64,000 bases of DNA from NCBI GenBank assembly GCA_026993525.1, contig JALWSS010000071.1, positions 1 to 64,000 on the forward strand. The letters are read 5' to 3'. Shown here in pieces: positions 2,539 through 53,140 of the stretch (position 1 is the stretch's first letter; each line of letters starts with the position of its first letter). The position numbers and the translations under genes were made by a program. The notes under the pieces are model-generated. The model had not been told where the DNA came from and searched no databases. It worked only from the letters and a program-made list of their open reading frames with translations. The DNA is from Saprospiraceae bacterium (GTDB lineage Bacteria > Bacteroidota > Bacteroidia > Chitinophagales > Saprospiraceae).

Positions 2539-3780
2539 ATGAGTCAAGCTCCCGGCAAATCCAACTGCTACTCCCTTTTCGACCTGAACGAGTACATCCG
2601 GCAGGTACTGGCCCTCAATTTTGCTGCGCCGGTTTGGGTGCAGGCTGAGGTGATGCAGGCCAAATTCTCCAGAGGGCATTGTTACCTCGACCTGATCCAG
2701 AAGGGTGAGAATGAGGGCGATGTACTGGCTCAGGCTCAGGGGGTGATCTGGGCCCGGCAGTTTTTTTCTCTCCAGTCGAAATTGGGTCCTTCGCTGGAAT
2801 CCCTGTTGCAGCCAGGTACTGAAGTCCAGCTACTGGTGGAGGTTTCTTTTCATGAGCGCTATGGCCTGAAACTGAATGTGCTGGACATGGATGAATCTTA
2901 CACATTGGGACGACTGGAGTTGCAACGCAGAAAAACCATCGAAAAGCTGCACAAGGCCGGTTTGCTGGAACGCAATAAAATGCTGCCTGTGCCGCCGGTA
3001 ATTCAGCGAATAGCCGTCATTTCTTCGGCTGAGGCAGCCGGGTACAAGGATTTCATCAACCAACTGGTGCACAACGCCTATGGCTATTCGTTTGAAACAG
3101 TCTTGTTTCCTTCGGCAATGCAGGGGGCGAAAGTGGTTGGGGAACTCACCAGACAACTTGAAAAAATCAAACCCGGGAAGTTCGACGTGGTGGTGGTCAT
3201 TCGCGGTGGAGGTGCGAAGCTTGATTTGTCTGCATTTGACGTTTATGAACTCTGTGAAACAGTTGCAAATTTTCATCTTCCGGTGCTGACCGGCATTGGC
3301 CACGAAGTGGACGAAACCGTGCTCGATATGGTGGCGGCCAGATCCTTGAAAACACCCACCGCCGTGGCCGAATACCTCATTCTTCACAATGCCCGCTTCG
3401 AGGCTGAATTGCTGGAAGCAGGCCGCAACATCCATCTACTGGCTACGGAGCTGATACATGGCAATCAAAAGCGAGTGGAGAATACCGGCCAATTGCTCCA
3501 TGCCGAGTACCGGCGGGCAGTTCAGAACCAGGAGCTGATGCTGCAATTCATTGAAAAAGAGTTGCCTGTGGCAGTAAAGAACCTGTTCAATTCTTCTCAC
3601 CAGAAGATGGATGCCCTGGAGGCCCGGCTTACCCTGCTCGATCCGGTTTCGGTGCTGAAACGGGGTTTCGCCATGGTTCAGAAAAACGGGAAACTGGTGA
3701 GCAGTGCCGTCCAGTTGAAAACAGGCGACGAAATGGAAACCGTTTTTGCCGACGGAAAAGTCAAAAGCACCGTTAACTGA
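2539..3780 (+). CDS. xseA: Exodeoxyribonuclease VII large subunit
   Basis: This 413-residue protein is the catalytic subunit of ExoVII, which degrades single-stranded DNA to oligonucleotides in both directions. An N-terminal OB-fold (YSLFDLNEYIRQVL through roughly residue 110) binds DNA. The central nuclease domain has the family signatures VIRGGGAKLDLSAFD and GIGHEVDETVLDMVA. The C-terminal third is predicted to be helical, and then LLDPVSVLKRGFAMVQKNG, typical of XseA, closes the protein. The small subunit follows after 5 bases, forming a two-gene operon. Confidence 0.96.
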   Translation: MSQAPGKSNCYSLFDLNEYIRQVLALNFAAPVWVQAEVMQAKFSRGHCYLDLIQKGENEGDVLAQAQGVIWARQFFSLQSKLGPSLESLLQPGTEVQLLVEVSFHERYGLKLNVLDMDESYTLGRLELQRRKTIEKLHKAGLLERNKMLPVPPVIQRIAVISSAEAAGYKDFINQLVHNAYGYSFETVLFPSAMQGAKVVGELTRQLEKIKPGKFDVVVVIRGGGAKLDLSAFDVYELCETVANFHLPVLTGIGHEVDETVLDMVAARSLKTPTAVAEYLILHNARFEAELLEAGRNIHLLATELIHGNQKRVENTGQLLHAEYRRAVQNQELMLQFIEKELPVAVKNLFNSSHQKMDALEARLTLLDPVSVLKRGFAMVQKNGKLVSSAVQLKTGDEMETVFADGKVKSTVN

Positions 3781-13415: not shown

Positions 13416-13470
13416 TCCCCCGTCTGACCGCCGGGCAGGCTCGATTCCTCATCCCTCATTCCTCATCCCT

Positions 13471-13598
13471 CATAAACCCCGTCGTTGCAAGTGTTGAGCG
13501 AAGTGGCACTTGCAACCTGTCCCCTTTGACGGCAAGTGACGTCTCGCCATGCTCAACTTAACACTTGCCGGAACGGAAGTGCTAGCCCCCTCATTCCT
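13471..13598. repeat. ~130-bp tandem repeat, copy 2
   Basis: It is nearly identical to copy 1 (GAGTGAAG changes to GAGCGAAG). The spacer between copies is made of TCCTCATCCCTCATT words and the GTCTGACCGCCGGGCAGG palindrome. Confidence 0.85.
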
Positions 13599-13632
13599 CA
13601 ATTCCTCCCCCGATGGCTATCGGGGCATCCCT

Positions 13633-13760
13633 CATAAACCCCGTCGTTGCAAGTGTTGAGCGAAGCGGCACTTGCAACCTGTCCCCTTTGACGGCAAGTG
13701 ACGTCTCGCCATGCTCAACTTAACACTTGCCGGAACGGATGTGCTAGCCCCCTCATTCCT
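13633..13760. repeat. ~130-bp tandem repeat, copy 3
   Basis: This is the third near-identical copy. It is followed by an array of CATAAACCCT/CATAATCCCT words to 13826 that runs up to the promoter of the pullulanase gene. Confidence 0.85.
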
Positions 13761-13838
13761 CATCCCTCATAAACCCTCATAAACCCTCATAATCCCTCAT
13801 AATCCCTCATAAACCTCCACAATCCTCCCACAGCTTTC

Positions 13839-41883: not shown

Positions 41884-42173
41884 AGGATTATAGTGGGTTA
41901 TGAAGGGTTATGAAGGGTTGTGAAAGGTTATGAAGGTTGTTGGCGGTTAGCAGTTGTCGGTTGACTGTTATCGGTTATCGGTTGTCGGGAATACTCTGTT
42001 GAACTCTGTTTTTAACTCCTTTTACTCTGTGGTTTATTCAAGGATTATGAAGGATTATGACTCCGATATTTACCGAAGAGCAGAATCAGCTACCAGCTAC
42101 CAGCCACAGCCTGCCCCGTGCCGATGCCGAAGGCTTTCGGCATCGGCATCGGGGAGCTACCAGCTACCTTTCT
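41884..42173. repeat. Composite word-repeat, copy 1 (inverted orientation)
   Basis: Read left to right there are GGTTATGAAGG words, CGGTTATCGGTTGTCGG words, an inverted AACCACAGAG unit (ACTCTGTT...CTCTGTGGTT, about 42003-42035), AAGGATTATGAAGG, then ACTCCGATATTTACCGAAGA, GCTACCAGCTACC words, and a GCCGAAGGCTTTCGGC palindrome. The stretch 42020-42120 is nearly the exact reverse complement of 47250-47335. No gene is present. Confidence 0.85.
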
Positions 42174-43958
42174 CTAAAAGTCAAACCGTTGTACAGCGAT
42201 GTTCCAGCGGATACCGACAGCGATAAATGACTGTGTATTGGTGTCATTATCACCTTGAATGTTTTGATTGCGACTAAAATATTGCAATTCTGCGTACAAG
42301 TTGTGGTACAATTTCCAGGAAATATCCACTCCGACGAGCAGGCCTTTAACCTGGATGGGACCACCTATTTCGTTACCGTAGTCCTGGGTCCTTGTCGTGT
42401 TCGGCTTGAGAATGTCTTCGCCCCAGTTTTCACCCTCCGGTGAGCGGCCCTGTACATAATGGATCATGCGCCCTTGAAGCTGCAACTTTTCCAAGGGTTG
42501 GTAATGGACATTCAGCAGCCATTCCCGGAAATTTGCCCCCAGCGGATGGGCCAGGGCCTGGTTGTAATGTGAGTAGCTTGCTCCGTACAGGTCGTCGTGG
42601 CTGTAGGTGAATGGCCGGGCCTTGTTGGTTTCGAGTTGTATATCCAGGTGATCTACCCCAAATGCATCCACATATTTGGCGCCCAGCTGCCAGGCCCATT
42701 TGTTGGCCCACCAGCCATTTCCGGAAAATATCTCTGTGGATTTGAACTCGTCAAGTAAATACTGACCGTAAAAGCGAACCCGGTTTCCAAAATCGTATTT
42801 GAAATCAAGGCCTATCAGAATGTTGTCTTTAGAATCCAGCAAGTGTTCAACGGTTCTGTACAGGATGACCGGGTTCAGGTAGCCCAACTCAAATTGTCCC
42901 TCCCTGTTGAAAACTACCGCCTCGTAAAAGCCAATGCTGAATTTTGGATTAAAACGATAAGACAGGTAATGTGCAGACAGGTATTTTTTCGGAATGACTA
43001 TAGAACCGGGATTGGCCTGAGCAGAAATAGCCTCTAGCTCCGTGTACAGGTTTTGGTAATGAAGTTTTCCAAACTCCCAGTTGACTTTCAGAAACAGGTA
43101 GTTGTGCGAAAAATCGGATAAAAACATGGACCTGTAACCGTAGCCGATAAAATTCCGGCCATGGCCAAACTGCAAACTAACATGACGAGTGATATTCATG
43201 CCGATAAATGCCTGTCCGTTTAGAATGTCAAAGGCCTTGTCGGAATTGAAAATGCCGCTTTTATATTTTTTATAAAATCCATTTCCAGGAACGGCTTTGT
43301 TTCGATCTACATAATCGTTCAGATACGGTAGCCAACGCAACTGGGTGTCGGTTATTTCTGAATAAATAAATATGCGGTTGTCAAAACCCGCCCGCAACGA
43401 CACACCGCGGCGGTTGAGGAACACCTTATCCGAACCCACTTTGAAGTCTATCATCGGGTTCAGGCGCAGGTACCAGTGCGGCTCGTTGAATTCCACCCAG
43501 TTGGTAGGTGTGGGGTAGAAGAAATTCCAGATGGGCCGTTCGTTCCGGAAATAATATGGGTGTTTCGTGCACTCAATTGCCTGATTGTAAGGGATAAAGC
43601 GATACAGCGTATCGCCTTTCACTTTTTCAAACCTGCCTGCATGCTGTCCAGCCACCGTTTGCGGGTATTCCCGTTGCCCCAGCCATTCGTTGTTGTTCAG
43701 AAATATCTGACGAAGGTCTCTTTTGTCCGAAGGAGAAACAACAGCAAGTGAATCCACGCCCAGTGCATATCGCACCAGACTCCCCCGGTTCCATATTTTC
43801 AGGGCGGAATGATAGCCCGGCATCTGCCCGTATTTTATTTCCACTCGCTCCGCAATGCGATAGCCTTCACTCCCAAGGGGAAGCCCAACACCTTGCCCCT
43901 GGACAGTGCCCAATGCGATCAAGAAAATGGCAACAAGAAAAGATTTTTTAAAGCTCAC
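42174..43958 (-). CDS. Wzi/RemB-like outer-membrane beta-barrel protein (GTG start)
   Basis: The 594-residue protein begins with GTG at 43958 (MSFKKSFLVAIFLIALGTVQGQ, a signal peptide) and ends in an aromatic residue (RWNIAVQRFDF), as outer-membrane barrels do. The middle has LQFGHGRNFIGYGYRSMFLSDFSHNYLFLKVNWEFGK-like sequence (FGHGRNFIGYGYRSMFLSD), the signature of capsule-assembly Wzi-family and gliding-associated RemB proteins. Alternating hydrophobic strands run throughout. In this locus it probably anchors or organises the polysaccharide at the cell surface. Composite repeats in opposite orientations lie on both sides of the gene. Confidence 0.83.
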   Translation of the reverse strand: MSFKKSFLVAIFLIALGTVQGQGVGLPLGSEGYRIAERVEIKYGQMPGYHSALKIWNRGSLVRYALGVDSLAVVSPSDKRDLRQIFLNNNEWLGQREYPQTVAGQHAGRFEKVKGDTLYRFIPYNQAIECTKHPYYFRNERPIWNFFYPTPTNWVEFNEPHWYLRLNPMIDFKVGSDKVFLNRRGVSLRAGFDNRIFIYSEITDTQLRWLPYLNDYVDRNKAVPGNGFYKKYKSGIFNSDKAFDILNGQAFIGMNITRHVSLQFGHGRNFIGYGYRSMFLSDFSHNYLFLKVNWEFGKLHYQNLYTELEAISAQANPGSIVIPKKYLSAHYLSYRFNPKFSIGFYEAVVFNREGQFELGYLNPVILYRTVEHLLDSKDNILIGLDFKYDFGNRVRFYGQYLLDEFKSTEIFSGNGWWANKWAWQLGAKYVDAFGVDHLDIQLETNKARPFTYSHDDLYGASYSHYNQALAHPLGANFREWLLNVHYQPLEKLQLQGRMIHYVQGRSPEGENWGEDILKPNTTRTQDYGNEIGGPIQVKGLLVGVDISWKLYHNLYAELQYFSRNQNIQGDNDTNTQSFIAVGIRWNIAVQRFDF

Positions 43959-43965
43959 TGTGCAA

Positions 43966-44180
43966 AGCTCTTAGCTCGTAGCTCCCCGAGTACTCGGGGC
44001 AGGCTGTAGCTCGTGGCTCGTAGTAGGTGCTAGTATAATCCTTTATAATCCCCGTAAAACCAAATAAACCACAGAGTTATAGGAGTTGAAAAACAGAGTT
44101 GAGCAGAGTACGCCTGCTAAACCCCATAATCCCCGTCTGACCGCCGGGCAGGCTTCATAATCCTTCATAATCCTTCATAA
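43966..44180. repeat. Composite word-repeat, copy 2
   Basis: TTAGCTCGTAGCTCC, the palindrome CCCCGAGTACTCGGGG, CAGGCTGTAGCTCGTGGCTC, CATAATCC-type words, an AACCACAGAG unit, then CCCCATAATCCCCGTCTGAC and the GCCGGGCAGGC palindrome. It begins within 10 bases of the wzi-like start codon and is the mirror image of copy 1 on the other side of that gene. Confidence 0.85.
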
Positions 44181-44847
44181 TCCCTGTCTGCCGCCAGCCC
44201 GTCTGGCCGCCGGACAGGGCAGGCTTCATAATCCTTGAAAAAACCACAGAGTTAAAGGAGTTTAAAACAGCTTTGAGCAGCGTATTCCTACCAACCGATA
44301 ACAGTCAACCGGCCCCGATGGTTATCGGAGACAACCGATAACAGTCAACCGACAACAGTCAACCGACAACTGCTAACCGCCAACAACCTTCATAACCCCT
44401 GTCTGCCGCCAGCCCGTCTGGCCGCCGGGCAGGGCAGGCTTCATAATCCTTGAAAAAACCACAGAGTTAAGGGAGTTAAAAACAGAGTTGAGCAGAGTAC
44501 GCCTGGTAAACCCCATAATCCCCGTCTGACCGCCGGGCAGGCTTCATAATCTTCATAATCCTCATAATCCCTGTCTGCCGCCAGCCCGTCTGGCCGCCGG
44601 ACAGGGCAGGCTTCATAATCCTTGAAAAAACCACAGAGTTAAGGGAGTTAAAAACAGAGTTGAGCAGCGTACGCCTGCTAAACCCCATAATCCCCGTCTG
44701 ACCGCCGGGCAGGCTTCATAATCCTTCATAATCCTTCATAATCCTTGAAAAAACCATAGAGTTAAGGGAGTAAAAAACAGAGTTGACCAGAGTACGCCTG
44801 CTAAACCCCATAATCCCCGTCTGACCGCCGGGCAGGCTCCATAATCC
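44066..44847. repeat. Array of five AACCACAGAG units with interleaved palindromes
   Basis: Units of roughly 100-190 bp start near 44068, 44237, 44455, 44629 and 44750. Each runs AACCACAGAGTTAAGGGAG, an AAAACAGAGTTGAGCAG stretch, GTACGCCTG, CCCCATAATCCCCGTCTG, the CCGCCGGGCAGGC palindrome and CATAATCCTT words. Two units carry the larger CTGCCGCCAGCCCGTCTGGC palindrome and one carries CCGATAACAGTCAACC words. There is no open frame of substance. This fills the 889-bp gap between fcl and the wzi-like gene. Confidence 0.85.
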
Positions 44848-47232: not shown

Positions 47233-47450
47233 TCGTAGCTCCCGGAGGCCTCTGGGCAGGCTGTAGCTCGTAGCTGATTCTGCTCTTCGGTAAATATCGG
47301 GGTCATAATCCTTGAATAAACCACAGAGTTATAGGAGTTAACCACAGAGATAAACAGAGTACCCATGCTAAACCCCATAATCCTCTATAAACCACAGAGT
47401 GATCAGAGTGAAAAACAGAGTTCAACAGAGTTTTCCTGCCAACCGCCAAC
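47228..47450. repeat. Composite word-repeat, copy 3
   Basis: GTAGCTCGTAGCTCC, the CCCGGAGGCCTCTGGG palindrome, CAGGCTGTAGCTCGTAGC, then TGATTCTGCTCTTCGG, TAAATATCGGGGTC, CATAATCCTTG and two successive AACCACAGAG units. The middle is the reverse complement of 42020-42120. Confidence 0.85.
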
Positions 47451-47530
47451 TGAGTACTGAGTACTGAATACTGAGTACTGAATACTGAATACTGAATACT
47501 GAGTACTGAATACTGAATACTGAATACTGC
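47451..47530. repeat. ACTGAGT / ACTGAATA word array
   Basis: About eleven 7-base units ACTGAGT or ACTGAAT run to within a few bases of the stop codon of the sugar transferase gene. Confidence 0.85.
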
Positions 47531-48337: not shown

Positions 48338-48814
48338 TGGGTCGTAGCTGGTAGCTCGTAGCTGGTAGCTCGTAGCTCCCCGAGTACTCGGGGCAGGCTG
48401 TGGCTCGTAGTAGGACCTGCTAAACCCCATAATCCCAAATTAACCACAGAGTGATCGGAGAGAAAAACAGAGTTAAACAGAGTACCCCTGTCAAACCCCA
48501 TAATCCCCGTCTGACCGCCGGGCAGGCTTCATAATCCGTATAATCCTTTTAAACCACAGAGTTATCGGGGTGAAAAACAGAGTACCCCTGCCAAACCCCA
48601 TAATCCCCGTCTGACCGCCGGGCAGGCTTCATAATCCGTATAATCCTTTTAAACCACAGAGTTATCGGAGTGAAAAACAGAGTTAAATCCCGAGACAAGC
48701 TCGGGACCAACCGACAACCGACAACCGACAACCGACAACCAACATAACCCTTCATAATCCCCATAATCCTCATAACCCTTCATAATCCTCATAACCCTTC
48801 ATAATCCTCCAAAA
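48338..48814. repeat. Composite word-repeat, copy 4, and AACCACAGAG units
   Basis: GTAGCTGGTAGCTCGTAGC words, the CCCCGAGTACTCGGGG palindrome, CAGGCTGTGGCTCGTAG, then three AACCACAGAG units (near 48436, 48553, 48653), each with CCCCATAATCCCCGTCTG and CCGCCGGGCAGGC. CCGACAA words (48711-48740) and CATAACCCTT words follow, up to the stop of the next gene at 48815. No gene lies in 48243-48814. Confidence 0.85.
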
Positions 48815-50023: not shown

Positions 50024-50030
50024 TTAATTT

Positions 50031-50129
50031 AGGTGTTGGCTCGTGGCTCGTAGCTCGTAGTAGGTTGGGGTAAATTTGCAAACAAATGTAGGTGTTGGCT
50101 CGTGGCTCGTAGCTCGTAGTAGGTTGGGG
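50031..50129. repeat. Two direct 40-bp copies of GGCTCGTGGCTCGTAG words around a promoter
   Basis: AGGTGTTGGCTCGTGGC plus TCGTAGCTCGTAGTAGG plus TTGGGG occurs at about 50031-50070 and again at 50090-50128, with the TACATTTG promoter between. The words are in the opposite orientation to those at 50551-50616. Confidence 0.85.
50083..50090 (-). promoter_or_regulatory. TAnnTTTG -7 box for the CapD-like gene
   Basis: The minus-strand TACATTTG lies 60 bases from the start codon, so the leader is composed of a repeat copy. Confidence 0.6.
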
Positions 50130-50139
50130 GGATTATGTA

Positions 50140-50508
50140 TCATTTTTTCTTTATAGCACGGATCAGGGAGTTGATCATTTTTGACAGAACCATTGCTTCA
50201 CTCCTAACCGAATTGAATTCCTCCTTAGAGACCCATGATTTGCGATAAAATATTGTCAGTAGCGTAATTGTCTCGAACAGGGATCCCCGAGCATAAAACA
50301 AGAATTGAACATATTCCTTCTTAGAAAATCTGCCTTTTCCCTCTGCAATATTCATGGCGACAGAGGTAGACGCTGCCTCCACTTGTTCTACGAGCCTGTA
50401 ATGCTTTCTTTCCGTTTCTAATTTCTCAGAAATGCCAATTACTTTTTCCGCAAAATCAATTGCCCGTTGCCAAACCTGAAGCCGCTCATAGTCAAATAAC
50501 TCTTCCAT
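50140..50508 (-). CDS. Four-helix-bundle protein (S23/IVP family), first copy
   Basis: The 122-residue protein (ATG 50508; an upstream in-frame TTG is less likely) matches the four-helix-bundle family found in 23S rRNA intervening sequences and related to the Avd accessory protein of diversity-generating retroelements. Signatures: DYERLQVWQRAIDFAEKVI, a helix ending in LVEQVEAASTSVAMNIAEGKGRFSKKEYVQFLFYARGS-type sequence (NIAEGKGR), LFETITLLTIF and a basic tail AIKKK. It contains no enzyme motif. It is flanked by inverted arrays of the GTAGCTCGTAGC word. The function of orphan copies is unknown. Confidence 0.88.
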   Translation of the reverse strand: MEELFDYERLQVWQRAIDFAEKVIGISEKLETERKHYRLVEQVEAASTSVAMNIAEGKGRFSKKEYVQFLFYARGSLFETITLLTIFYRKSWVSKEEFNSVRSEAMVLSKMINSLIRAIKKK

Positions 50509-50550
50509 TTTCAATGAATGGACCTAATTTTACTATTTAATTAATCGTTG

Positions 50551-50616
50551 CCCCGAGCCCCGAGCCCCGAGCTACCAGCTACGAGCTACCAGCTACCAGC
50601 TACGAGCCACGAGCTC
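50551..50616. repeat. CCCCGAG / AGCTACCAGCTACGAGC word array
   Basis: CCCCGAG occurs three times, then five AGCTACC or AGCTACG units. It is the inverse of the word at 50031-50129 across the four-helix gene. The left-hand gene end at 50593 lies inside the array. Confidence 0.85.
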
Positions 50617-51795
50617 TTCAGCAACGCGTCGCACCTCTTCCTCGCTCAACCCATTGTACACCGGCAATGATATTTCGTTTTCATACAGGCGGTAGGTGTT
50701 CGGATAATCCTCCATTTTATATCCCATATTTTTAAAAAGCGTCAGCATGGGCATGGGGATGTAGTGCACATTGGTGCCGATGCCCGCCTCCGCCATTTTC
50801 TGGATGAGTGCATCCCGCTGCTTTTCAGTGTAGCCACTGATGCGCAGCAGGTAGAGGTGGTACGACGATTCACGTTCGGGGTCTTTGACCGGAGGGAGTA
50901 GCGCCCAGCCATGTTTCGAGAGGGCTTCGTTGTACTGGTCCACGATGCGGCGGCGTTCCGGCAGCAGTTCCGATTCGTATTTGCGGAGTTGTGCCAGCCC
51001 GATGGCCGCACAGACGTCCGGCATGTTGACCTTGAGGCCCTGGGCGATGATGTCGTAGCGCCAGCCTCCGGCCTGGTTTTTTTCAAAGGCGCTCTTTGTC
51101 TGGCCGTTGAGGGAGAAGACCTTCAGGAAGCGGTATTCCGCCTCGTTGTCGAAGGGGTGGGGGAGGTTGAGCAGCACGGCACCGCCTTCACCGGTGGTCA
51201 CGTTCTTGACGGAGTGAAAGCTGAACACCGACACGTCGGGCCAGTCCACGGCGAAGCCGCCCCGGTACCGGGCGCCGATGCTGTGGGCCGCATCTGCCAG
51301 CACCAGCGGACGCCCCAGGGCCTCCTGCCGCTCATTGGCCGGTGTGAACTGCTGCCGCACCTCCGCACTGTTCACCACCTCCATGATGCCGGCATAGTCG
51401 CAGGGCCAGCCACCCAGGTCCACCGGGATGATGGCCCTGGTGCGGGGACTGATGGCCTGGGCCAACTGCTCCGGATCCATGCTAAAGTCGTCCTTCACAT
51501 CCACCATCACCACCCGTGCACCGATGTTCAGGGCACAGAGCGCCGTGGCACTGTAAGTATATGCCGGCACGATGACCTCATCTCCCGGCCCCACCCCGAA
51601 CCACCGCAACACCAGCATGGCCCCGGAAGTCCAGGAGTTGACGCAGAGGGCAGGCTTGTTGTACAAGCGCCTGAGTTCGGCTTCGAGAGCGGCTACTTTG
51701 GGACCGCTGGTTAGCCAACCTGTGTTGTGCAGGGTGTCGAGCATTTCGGCCTCGACATCGGCGTCGATGAGGGGGAGGGAGAAGGGGGTTTTCAT
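50593..51795 (-). CDS. DegT/DnrJ/EryC1-type nucleotide-sugar aminotransferase
   Basis: The 400-residue PLP enzyme would aminate a keto-sugar, plausibly the product of the CapD-like enzyme. Markers: PLIDADVEAEMLDTLHNTGWLTSGPKV-type N-terminus, VIVPAYTYSATALCAL, LADAAHSIGARYRG, and the PLP lysine in FSFHSVKNVTTGEGGAVL. GLKVNMPDVCAAIGLAQL and the SYHLYLLRI loop complete the family pattern. The last residues ELVARSW and the TAG stop are read from the GTAGCTCGTAGC repeat word. Upstream, the ATG directly abuts an ACTGAATACTGA array. Confidence 0.92.
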   Translation of the reverse strand: MKTPFSLPLIDADVEAEMLDTLHNTGWLTSGPKVAALEAELRRLYNKPALCVNSWTSGAMLVLRWFGVGPGDEVIVPAYTYSATALCALNIGARVVMVDVKDDFSMDPEQLAQAISPRTRAIIPVDLGGWPCDYAGIMEVVNSAEVRQQFTPANERQEALGRPLVLADAAHSIGARYRGGFAVDWPDVSVFSFHSVKNVTTGEGGAVLLNLPHPFDNEAEYRFLKVFSLNGQTKSAFEKNQAGGWRYDIIAQGLKVNMPDVCAAIGLAQLRKYESELLPERRRIVDQYNEALSKHGWALLPPVKDPERESSYHLYLLRISGYTEKQRDALIQKMAEAGIGTNVHYIPMPMLTLFKNMGYKMEDYPNTYRLYENEISLPVYNGLSEEEVRRVAEELVARSW

Positions 51796-51878
51796 TCAGT
51801 ATTCAGTGTTCAGTATTCAGTGTTCAGTAATCAGTAATCAGTGGTCAGTGGTCAGTGGTCAGTGGTCAGTGGTCAGTT
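51796..51878. repeat. TTCAGTATTCAGTG / GTCAGTG word array
   Basis: About eleven 7-base units change gradually from TTCAGTA and TTCAGTG to GTCAGTG. The array touches the start codon of the aminotransferase on the left and nearly the stop of the second four-helix gene on the right. Confidence 0.88.
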
Positions 51879-51880
51879 GG

Positions 51881-52258
51881 CTATTTGTTGCGTTTGATGA
51901 CGCCGAATTTTTGGGGGTTGCGTATCATGAATCCTAATAGTTTTCCAATTTCCTTGCTTTTCCGGTGCAAAATATGGTAGGCCGATTCCTCCAAATACCC
52001 GCATTTCAACGAAAACTGCAACCAGACCTGGGTCTCTGAATTCTCTGCATCTGCCGTGGCCAATTTACTTTCAAAATGCGCAGGATATTGTCGAACCCGA
52101 TAAGCTTCGGCTATCTGGGCACAGACTGACCTCGAACTTCTTCGAATCTGATCAATAAGGGAATATGTCTCAACTTTTGGGAAATTTTTACTGATCTCAA
52201 ATATTTCCATTGCCAACTCAAAACCCAATTGATAAGCCTTTAACTCCGTAAAATTCAT
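51881..52258 (-). CDS. Four-helix-bundle protein (S23/IVP family), second copy
   Basis: The 125-residue protein has the same family pattern as the one at 50140: FTELKAYQLGFELAMEIFEISKNFP, YSLIDQIRRSSRSVCAQIAEAYRVRQY, a DAENSETQVWLQFSLKCGYL helix pair, and a basic tail (FGVIKRNK). Sequence identity with the first copy is low, so this is not a recent duplication. Inverted arrays of the CAGTAATCAGT word lie on both sides. Function unknown; RNA binding is an inference from the family's link with rRNA intervening sequences. Confidence 0.88.
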   Translation of the reverse strand: MNFTELKAYQLGFELAMEIFEISKNFPKVETYSLIDQIRRSSRSVCAQIAEAYRVRQYPAHFESKLATADAENSETQVWLQFSLKCGYLEESAYHILHRKSKEIGKLLGFMIRNPQKFGVIKRNK

Positions 52259-52275
52259 TTCTCATAAATATGTTT

Positions 52276-52481
52276 AACTACTGATTACTCCCTACTGAAC
52301 ACTGCCTACTGAACACTCCCTACTGAACACTGCCTACTGATTACTGCCTACTGATTACTGCCTACTGTGTACTGCCTACTGATTACTGCCTACTGTGTAC
52401 TGCCTACTGATTACTGCCTACTGTGTACTGCCTACTGATTACTGCCTACTGTGTACTGCCTACTGATTACTGCCTACTGTC
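52276..52481. repeat. Higher-order array of 14-bp ACTG words
   Basis: From 52335 two 14-bp monomers alternate, A = TACTGATTACTGCC and B = TACTGTGTACTGCC, in the order A A B A B A B A B A, giving a 28-bp higher-order period. To the left (52278-52334) are related TACTGAACACTGCC units. The array is the inverse of that at 51796-51878. Confidence 0.92.
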
Positions 52482-53140
52482 TTCCACATCCCCAAAGACT
52501 TCCCCCTTACTTCTCCTCTTATCCAACCATTGCGTTCATAGGCCCGGATGGCCTGGTGGTTGGCGGCAAGCACGCTGAGGTGGAGTTTGCGAATACCATA
52601 CACTTCGACTGCCCTGCGTTCAAATTCTTTCAATAGCATAGATCCATAGCCTTTGCCTTGATACGCCGGATCCACGCCTATCACTACAAGGCCGACAGAC
52701 GGTTCCTTAGACATTTTGGCTTTTTGCTCGGGTGTGAAATGGGTTCTTTTGGCAAGACCAAGTTTCATCTTGATATTTTTCCAGAGTAACGGCCACTTCT
52801 CCCTAACTTCCGGATGAAACAATACCCACGGATGTGTCAGAAAGGCCCAGATGGCAGCCCGGAAAGTGTACTGGGCCATGCCACTTGCCGAGCCGGTGCC
52901 AAGAGTCCCGTCACTGACCATGCCCCCGCAATACCCCACGCATTTACCCGATTCGTCCTCAACATGAAACAGGAATGTTTTATCCGTTGAAAGATACCAC
53001 GAAAGCATGTGGGCGACGTAGCGTTTTCCGAGGGCAGTGGAGAGTGCCCTGGGGAATGCTGCCGCATGACAACGGGCAAGGGAAGGGAGGTTGATGTCTG
53101 AGGTTGAAACCAATATGACATCCTTTCTATCTGATTCCAT
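52460..53140 (-). CDS. GNAT-family N-acetyltransferase
   Basis: The 226-residue protein has a GNAT core with GLVVIGVDPAYQGKGYGSMLLKEFERRA, where the Q/RxxGxG/A acetyl-CoA loop is QGKGYG, and LHLSVLAANHQAIRAYERNGWI. The N-terminal half has ARCHAAAFPRALSTALGKRY. In this locus it probably acetylates an amino sugar made by the DegT-type enzyme. Its final residues TVGSNQ and the TAG stop are encoded by monomers of the 14-bp ACTG array, which suggests that the original C-terminus was replaced. The start overlaps the end of the next gene by 14 bases. Confidence 0.88.
   Translation of the reverse strand: MESDRKDVILVSTSDINLPSLARCHAAAFPRALSTALGKRYVAHMLSWYLSTDKTFLFHVEDESGKCVGYCGGMVSDGTLGTGSASGMAQYTFRAAIWAFLTHPWVLFHPEVREKWPLLWKNIKMKLGLAKRTHFTPEQKAKMSKEPSVGLVVIGVDPAYQGKGYGSMLLKEFERRAVEVYGIRKLHLSVLAANHQAIRAYERNGWIRGEVRGKSLGMWKTVGSNQ

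Follow-up and report, generated by a model that had tools for sequence, protein, structure and literature searches.

A small S23-type gene between inverted heptad arrays in a Saprospiraceae bacterium: a probable mobile element of the intervening-sequence kind

Why should a short S23-type gene lie between protein genes, closely bracketed by two long arrays of a seven-base word that are inverted relative to each other? The question is raised by a locus in a 64,000-nt stretch of DNA from a Saprospiraceae bacterium, the whole of which is called here the window. The preliminary description had placed an S23-type gene between inverted arrays of a repeated word, and both the gene and the arrays proved real in the profile searches, the TRF analysis and the phased core counts. 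The gene was delimited by its ORF, the PF05635 and TIGR02436 profiles and phmmer, the arrays by TRF and core counts:

51794..52479, no strand: proposed whole element of 686 bp comprising the gene and both arrays, its outer limits taken from the arrays
51794..51877, no strand: left inverted array, on the 3' side of the S23 gene, made of 12 CAGT heptads
51881..52258, minus strand: S23/bIVP four-helix-bundle gene, 125 aa
52278..52479, no strand: right inverted array, on the 5' side of the S23 gene, with 27 ACTG cores that share a 7-bp phase

The 125-aa product matched PF05635 (7.4e-29, 100.5 bits versus a cut-off of 33.8) and TIGR02436 (2.2e-25, 89 bits versus a cut-off of 24) over nearly the full length, and with both curated cut-offs exceeded it belongs to the S23/bIVP family. 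Its phmmer relatives were 2rld and 2gsc, the latter from Xanthomonas, with five chains each. The related Avd family of the diversity-generating retroelements was reached with 38.9 bits for PF22296, just under the cut-off of 40, but the score of 35 against the NF033474 cut-off of 80 sets the protein apart from Avd proper. No transposase was recognised in the S23 proteins of the window by profile searches, Pfam returning only PF05635 and a weak bAvd match.

The 12 CAGT cores of the left array were always spaced by 7 bp, and the 27 ACTG cores of the right array kept a single phase with two positions skipped, versus a longest phased run of 3 in 50 mononucleotide shuffles of the window. In one pairing the arms matched as inverted repeats over 84 nt at 76%. 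The constant part of the heptad at this locus is CAGT/ACTG and the remaining three letters vary; the exact 11-mers named in the preliminary description were present, CAGTAATCAGT twice (at 51825 and 51832, in the left array) and ACTGATTACTG six times, but they covered only part of the arrays. A conserved core per heptad, clear at this locus, was rejected as a general property, since only 4 of 99 arms had at least four invariant neighbouring phases with 2.0 expected. The left array adjoins the ORF at 50593-51795 on the side of its start codon, and the final 20 bp of the right array are shared with the end of the adjoining ORF at 52460-53140.

To score a locus, its left flank was compared with the reverse complement of its right flank, and cuts of at least 17 and, more loosely, at least 15 were applied. 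Another S23 gene and a solo array were found in the same window, the gene from its ORF call and the PF05635/TIGR02436 profiles, its left array by repeat search and TRF, its right array by TRF and flank scoring, and the solo array by TRF and scoring:

50140..50514, minus strand: first S23 gene of the window
50026..50129, no strand: left array belonging to the first S23 gene, in which a 45-nt stretch with GCTCGTA-type heptads is present twice
50550..50615, no strand: right array belonging to the first S23 gene, of the AGCTACC/CGAGC type
47449..47529, no strand: solo array with the word ACTGAAT, as at the 51881-52258 locus, and no adjoining S23 gene

The flank score of 19.5 and the repeats at the first gene agree with the earlier view that the two S23 genes share one architecture while differing in the word. 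The solo array scored 43.5 against the arms of the 51881-52258 element. By eye, a 594-aa ORF (window 41895-44385) is enclosed by two nested sets of inverted arrays, with the words GGTTATGAA/TTCATAATC and GTCGGTT/AACCGAC, so array brackets may hold larger genes as well. Tandem duplications of 162, 172 and 100 bp, consisting partly of repeat words, occur at 13464-13762, 44387-44744 and 48475-48683.

The bracketing of S23 genes by matching inverted arrays turned out to be a regular feature. Seven of the eight S23 genes of the same genome scored at least 17, and the eighth (L001) lies between arrays that pair poorly with each other. The same cut was reached by 37 of 45 tested loci in the genus (8 of 45 below it) and by 11 of 21 loci in other relatives (10 of 21 below it), so that a gene free of arrays, the state expected in relatives if the preliminary description were wrong, is not general among them. 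None of 30 ParE control loci scored as high, nor did more than 1.9% of 5402 combinations of flanks from different S23 loci; the four positives among 26 GIY-YIG control loci were by eye ordinary palindromic repeats and were not accepted as arrays. When a 380-bp pseudo-gene was slid along 345,859 bp of this genome and scored at 3195 positions, seven positions in four clusters reached at least 17. Three of the clusters were S23 genes, including the 51881-52258 locus; the fourth (L054, near 10800) had no S23 gene, and its reading as an array was dropped after inspection by eye. Among 302 S23 flanks, period 7 was found in 119, followed by period 8 (34) and period 9 (12), versus one shuffled flank with period 7 and three with any period. 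The genus counts set against ParE and the cross-locus pairs, like the runs of only 3 in the shuffled window, uphold the earlier claim that the architecture is not due to chance.

The layout extends to many phyla. In a multi-phylum set made of the best 80 of 583 S23 relatives, which is not a random sample, 76 loci had enough flank; 49 of the 76 scored at least 15 and 36 at least 17, the other 27 missing the looser cut. At the two cuts, the 5700 cross pairs gave 1.9% and 1.2%, and the 380 shuffles 0.5% and 0.3%. Among those of the best 80 of 583 that were classed as non-Bacteroidota, 21 of 26 scored at least 15 (cross pairs, 1.5% of 650), and these came from Clostridia, Geobacter, Thiobacillus, Acidobacteria, Akkermansia, Planctomycetota, a Roizmanbacterium and a Methanophagales archaeon, among others. 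The plasmid loci, mostly cyanobacterial, reached at least 15 in 9 of 16 cases (cross pairs, 7 of 240); the seven that missed it include four of the eight insert sites described below, where heptads were seen by eye only. At L079 (about 1160-1290 and 1680-1770) the S23 gene lies between two full array hairpins that are mutually inverted copies, loop included, and at L296 and L319 the S23 frame terminates within the right-hand array, which thus encodes the protein tail.

This anatomy recalls the intervening sequences (IVS) of 23S rRNA. The Coxiella IVS is described as 428 nt long, with a terminal stem of 28 bp and an S23 ORF that is preceded by tandem GACAGAT heptamers; its excision by RNase III is reported, an IVS with an S23 ORF is also known in Leptospira, and the Xanthomonas S23 protein is described as a homopentamer (PMC4990558). 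The S23 ORF at 51881-52258 likewise lies between inverted terminal repeats, and heptamers beside the ORF and the sense orientation are common to both. In contrast to the described IVS, with its 28-bp stem, the element at 51794-52479 has long arrays, lies between protein genes and is known here from its sequence. No Rfam family reached its gathering score in the window, and the flanks are protein ORFs. The locus is therefore of the IVS kind in its anatomy and is placed outside rRNA; by location it is not a 23S IVS. A link between the two situations was found in Azospirillum lipoferum, where a plasmid S23 gene (L305) interrupts a 23S rRNA gene (2108.7 bits for Rfam LSU) as part of an insert whose arms are inverted heptads with a score of 23.5. 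A second replicon of this strain has a matching 23S stretch without the insert, 99.7% identical over the aligned bases, with a simple hairpin tip about 19 nt long at the insert position. Instead of a duplication, about 19 nt of the hairpin tip were lost at the insert.

Does the unit move as a whole? At eight sites for which a related empty site was available, seven on cyanobacterial plasmids and one in the Azospirillum 23S rRNA gene, all outside this genus, the gene and its flanking arrays formed one insert of 415-516 bp; the arrays lay within the insert and were by eye absent from the empty allele. The comparison of L304 with L318 is left out of this set. On plasmid C of Trichormus variabilis the insert of 428 bp comprises left heptads, S23 and right heptads, its empty counterparts on Nostoc linckia and Tolypothrix plasmids having flanks 98.5-99% identical, and the L312 plasmid carries a reduced remnant of the insert at this site. 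The other seven sites are L319/L298, L302, L295, L299, L301, L306 and the 23S copy L305, with flank identities of 85-95% and, for L305, 99.7%. In a scripted check, the Trichormus site was the sole one of the eight with a 5-bp target duplication (GTAAT), L302 had a 3-bp duplication (ATG) against one comparator but not against another, and six of the eight sites had none; candidate duplications noticed by eye were TTCTA at L319 (flanks 91-92% identical) and TTAGT/TTAGC at L295 (85%). Some cyanobacterial plasmid S23 genes lie inside CRISPR-cas operons (L299, L303 and L304), two of the copies with cas6 and cas4 as their neighbours and one with cas10 and cmr3. The neighbour of the 51881-52258 locus, labelled GNAT-like from its sequence alone, had a full-length match only in its own genome among 14 of the genus, so that the other 13 genomes supplied no counterpart for an empty-site comparison at this locus.

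The word of the arrays agrees within a locus and usually differs between S23 loci, and among close relatives it follows the protein. When only pairs of S23 genes with no homology found between their flanking ORFs were considered, the word was common to 24 of 33 pairs at 65% protein identity or more, to 5 of 49 at 60-65% and to 108 of 5804 below 60%; at 60% or more it was common to 29 of 82 pairs, a proportion that none of 999 permutations attained. An overall correlation between protein and word was discarded, being weak by Pearson (0.14 for all pairs, none of 999 permutations as high; 0.10 for pairs without flank homology, 1 of 999 as high) and nil by rank (Spearman 0.01 for all pairs), and word sharing is therefore confined to close S23 relatives, with the signal above about 65% identity. 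At the prfC site, G000 and G004 have the S23 gene, 85% identical, and the word in common. Relatives without S23 at the same site (L194, L196, L199 and L201) show by eye inverted arrays of another word round a terminator-like hairpin after prfC. The link between word and protein among close relatives suggests that the S23 protein may be a reader of its own word.

Several other explanations of the gene-array layout have to be weighed. The contigs are draft and repeats are error-prone, so an assembly artefact or chance could be suspected; the recurrence of this anatomy in many phyla and in plasmid records labelled complete, together with the sliding scan, the ParE and cross-locus controls and the shuffles, contradicts this to the point that we practically dismiss it. 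A more serious rival regards S23 genes as guests that insert into, or survive in, the loops of ordinary intergenic heptamer hairpins made by slippage and template switching in array-rich genomes. Arrays are indeed frequent without S23: 74 solo arrays were counted in a 346-kb sample of the same genome, 49 of which matched genus S23 arms at 17 or more, a figure that the longer genus arms might inflate, versus 5 that matched arms from other genera and 14 that matched after permutation of the letters within the period, the latter being the fairer control. The gluconate-dehydrogenase site also speaks for guests. There S23 was by reading present in 3 of 14 genomes and absent in 11, seven of these 11 having an inverted repeat that beat all of 100 shuffles; only 12 of 110 between-genome arm pairs reached 12, so the words mostly differ there, and the three S23 genes appear not to be sisters in the tree. 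Since array hairpins without S23 occur at the same genus site, the arrival of S23 in existing arrays is possible there. As a general account, however, we hold the guest reading improbable, because the word goes with the protein to unrelated sites and because at the eight compared sites the empty allele is by eye free of arrays and the insert includes them beside the gene.

Two further readings are compatible with that of a mobile element and concern what the arrays do. The S23 gene had the same direction as its upstream neighbour in 50 cases versus 2 in the genus and relatives (20 unclear) and in 54 versus 5 in the named set (best 80 of 583; 13 unclear), compared with 25 versus 13 in the pooled ParE and GIY-YIG controls (Fisher 2.7e-4 against the genus and relatives). 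For the downstream neighbour the counts were 44 versus 15 in the genus and relatives, with no difference from controls (p 0.19), and 55 versus 5 in the named set (best 80 of 583). The upstream co-direction is consistent with read-through expression or with insertion through RNA. It would also suit an RNA device in which the arrays of a read-through transcript form a stem that RNase III cleaves, releasing the S23 message in the manner of 23S rRNA; the RNase III excision reported for the Coxiella IVS (PMC4990558) and the low folding energy favour it as well. The energy at the 51881-52258 locus was below that of shuffles on the gene strand (z -3.0, 1 of 20 as low) and on the other strand (z -4.1, 0 of 20), but any inverted repeat would give this. 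Among sense-strand arm mismatches at 110 loci there was no excess of G.U over A.C (116 versus 146). Selection for sense-strand RNA pairing was set aside for want of that signature, and the pairing of both arrays in one transcript, implied earlier, was left unsupported by the single test made. As the change of word between loci is not explained either, we think an RNA device rather unlikely, if far from negligible. Less likely still than guests are arrays acting as bidirectional Rho-type terminators, which on each strand would be rich in C and poor in G in the direction leading out of the loop. Rho prefers C-rich, G-poor sequence, and the 5' arms on the gene strand are C-poor (C 0.10, G 0.31; G exceeds C in 101 of 110 loci), as that reading predicts; a word shared by a protein lineage is nevertheless needless for a terminator.

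Among known repeat systems, RAYT/REPIN combines a gene flanked by inverted repeats with many gene-less copies of the repeats, the ends being short palindromes. The S23 element resembles it in having one gene with inverted repeats and many gene-less copies, and differs in that the 51881-52258 gene is without the HUH (Y1) transposase (PF05635 and weak bAvd being the only Pfam matches) and the ends are heptad arrays. Heptamer simple-sequence repeats, intergenic like the arrays at S23 loci, are described, in the passages available, for TAACTGA in Beggiatoaceae and Bacteroidetes (PMC4679880) and for GGGAATC in Xanthomonas, with related repeats in Nostoc and with 70 and 75 convergent array pairs in two Xanthomonas genomes (PMC4692102). 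Those passages differ from the present case in describing no S23 element, and the main texts of both papers mention neither S23 nor 'four helix'. Among the matches listed from the open-licence literature, no title or opening of an abstract tied S23 genes outside rRNA to repeat arrays.

Altogether, these results suggest, with a probability of about three in four, that 51794-52479 is one copy of a small S23 (bIVP) mobile element of the IVS kind with an inverted heptad array at each end, its putative limits being drawn from the arrays and from insert sites elsewhere. A mobile unit that has the arrays as its ends goes beyond what the preliminary description had proposed. In such an element transcripts that read through from the upstream gene would serve to express S23; the protein, presumably pentameric by homology, would recognise the word of its own arrays or the hairpin that they form; movement might depend on an enzyme supplied in trans; and arrays of the same words without S23 could be derivatives after gene loss.

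A bolder generalisation, to which we give slightly less than an even chance, is that S23 genes form pan-prokaryotic miniature coding mobile elements with inverted heptad-array ends and a word per lineage, the rRNA IVS being only those copies that landed in rRNA, and that gene-less derivatives make up much of the heptamer excess in bacterial genomes. On this bolder view, the sense-strand bias and the kinship with Avd would fit RNA-mediated movement with a reverse transcriptase provided in trans. The reading of S23 as a mobile element joins a common protein family of little-known function with the excess of seven-base repeats in bacterial genomes and suggests an origin for the ribosomal intervening sequences. 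It predicts a code from protein to word and draws attention to a mobile unit, roughly half a kilobase long, without a recognised transposase.
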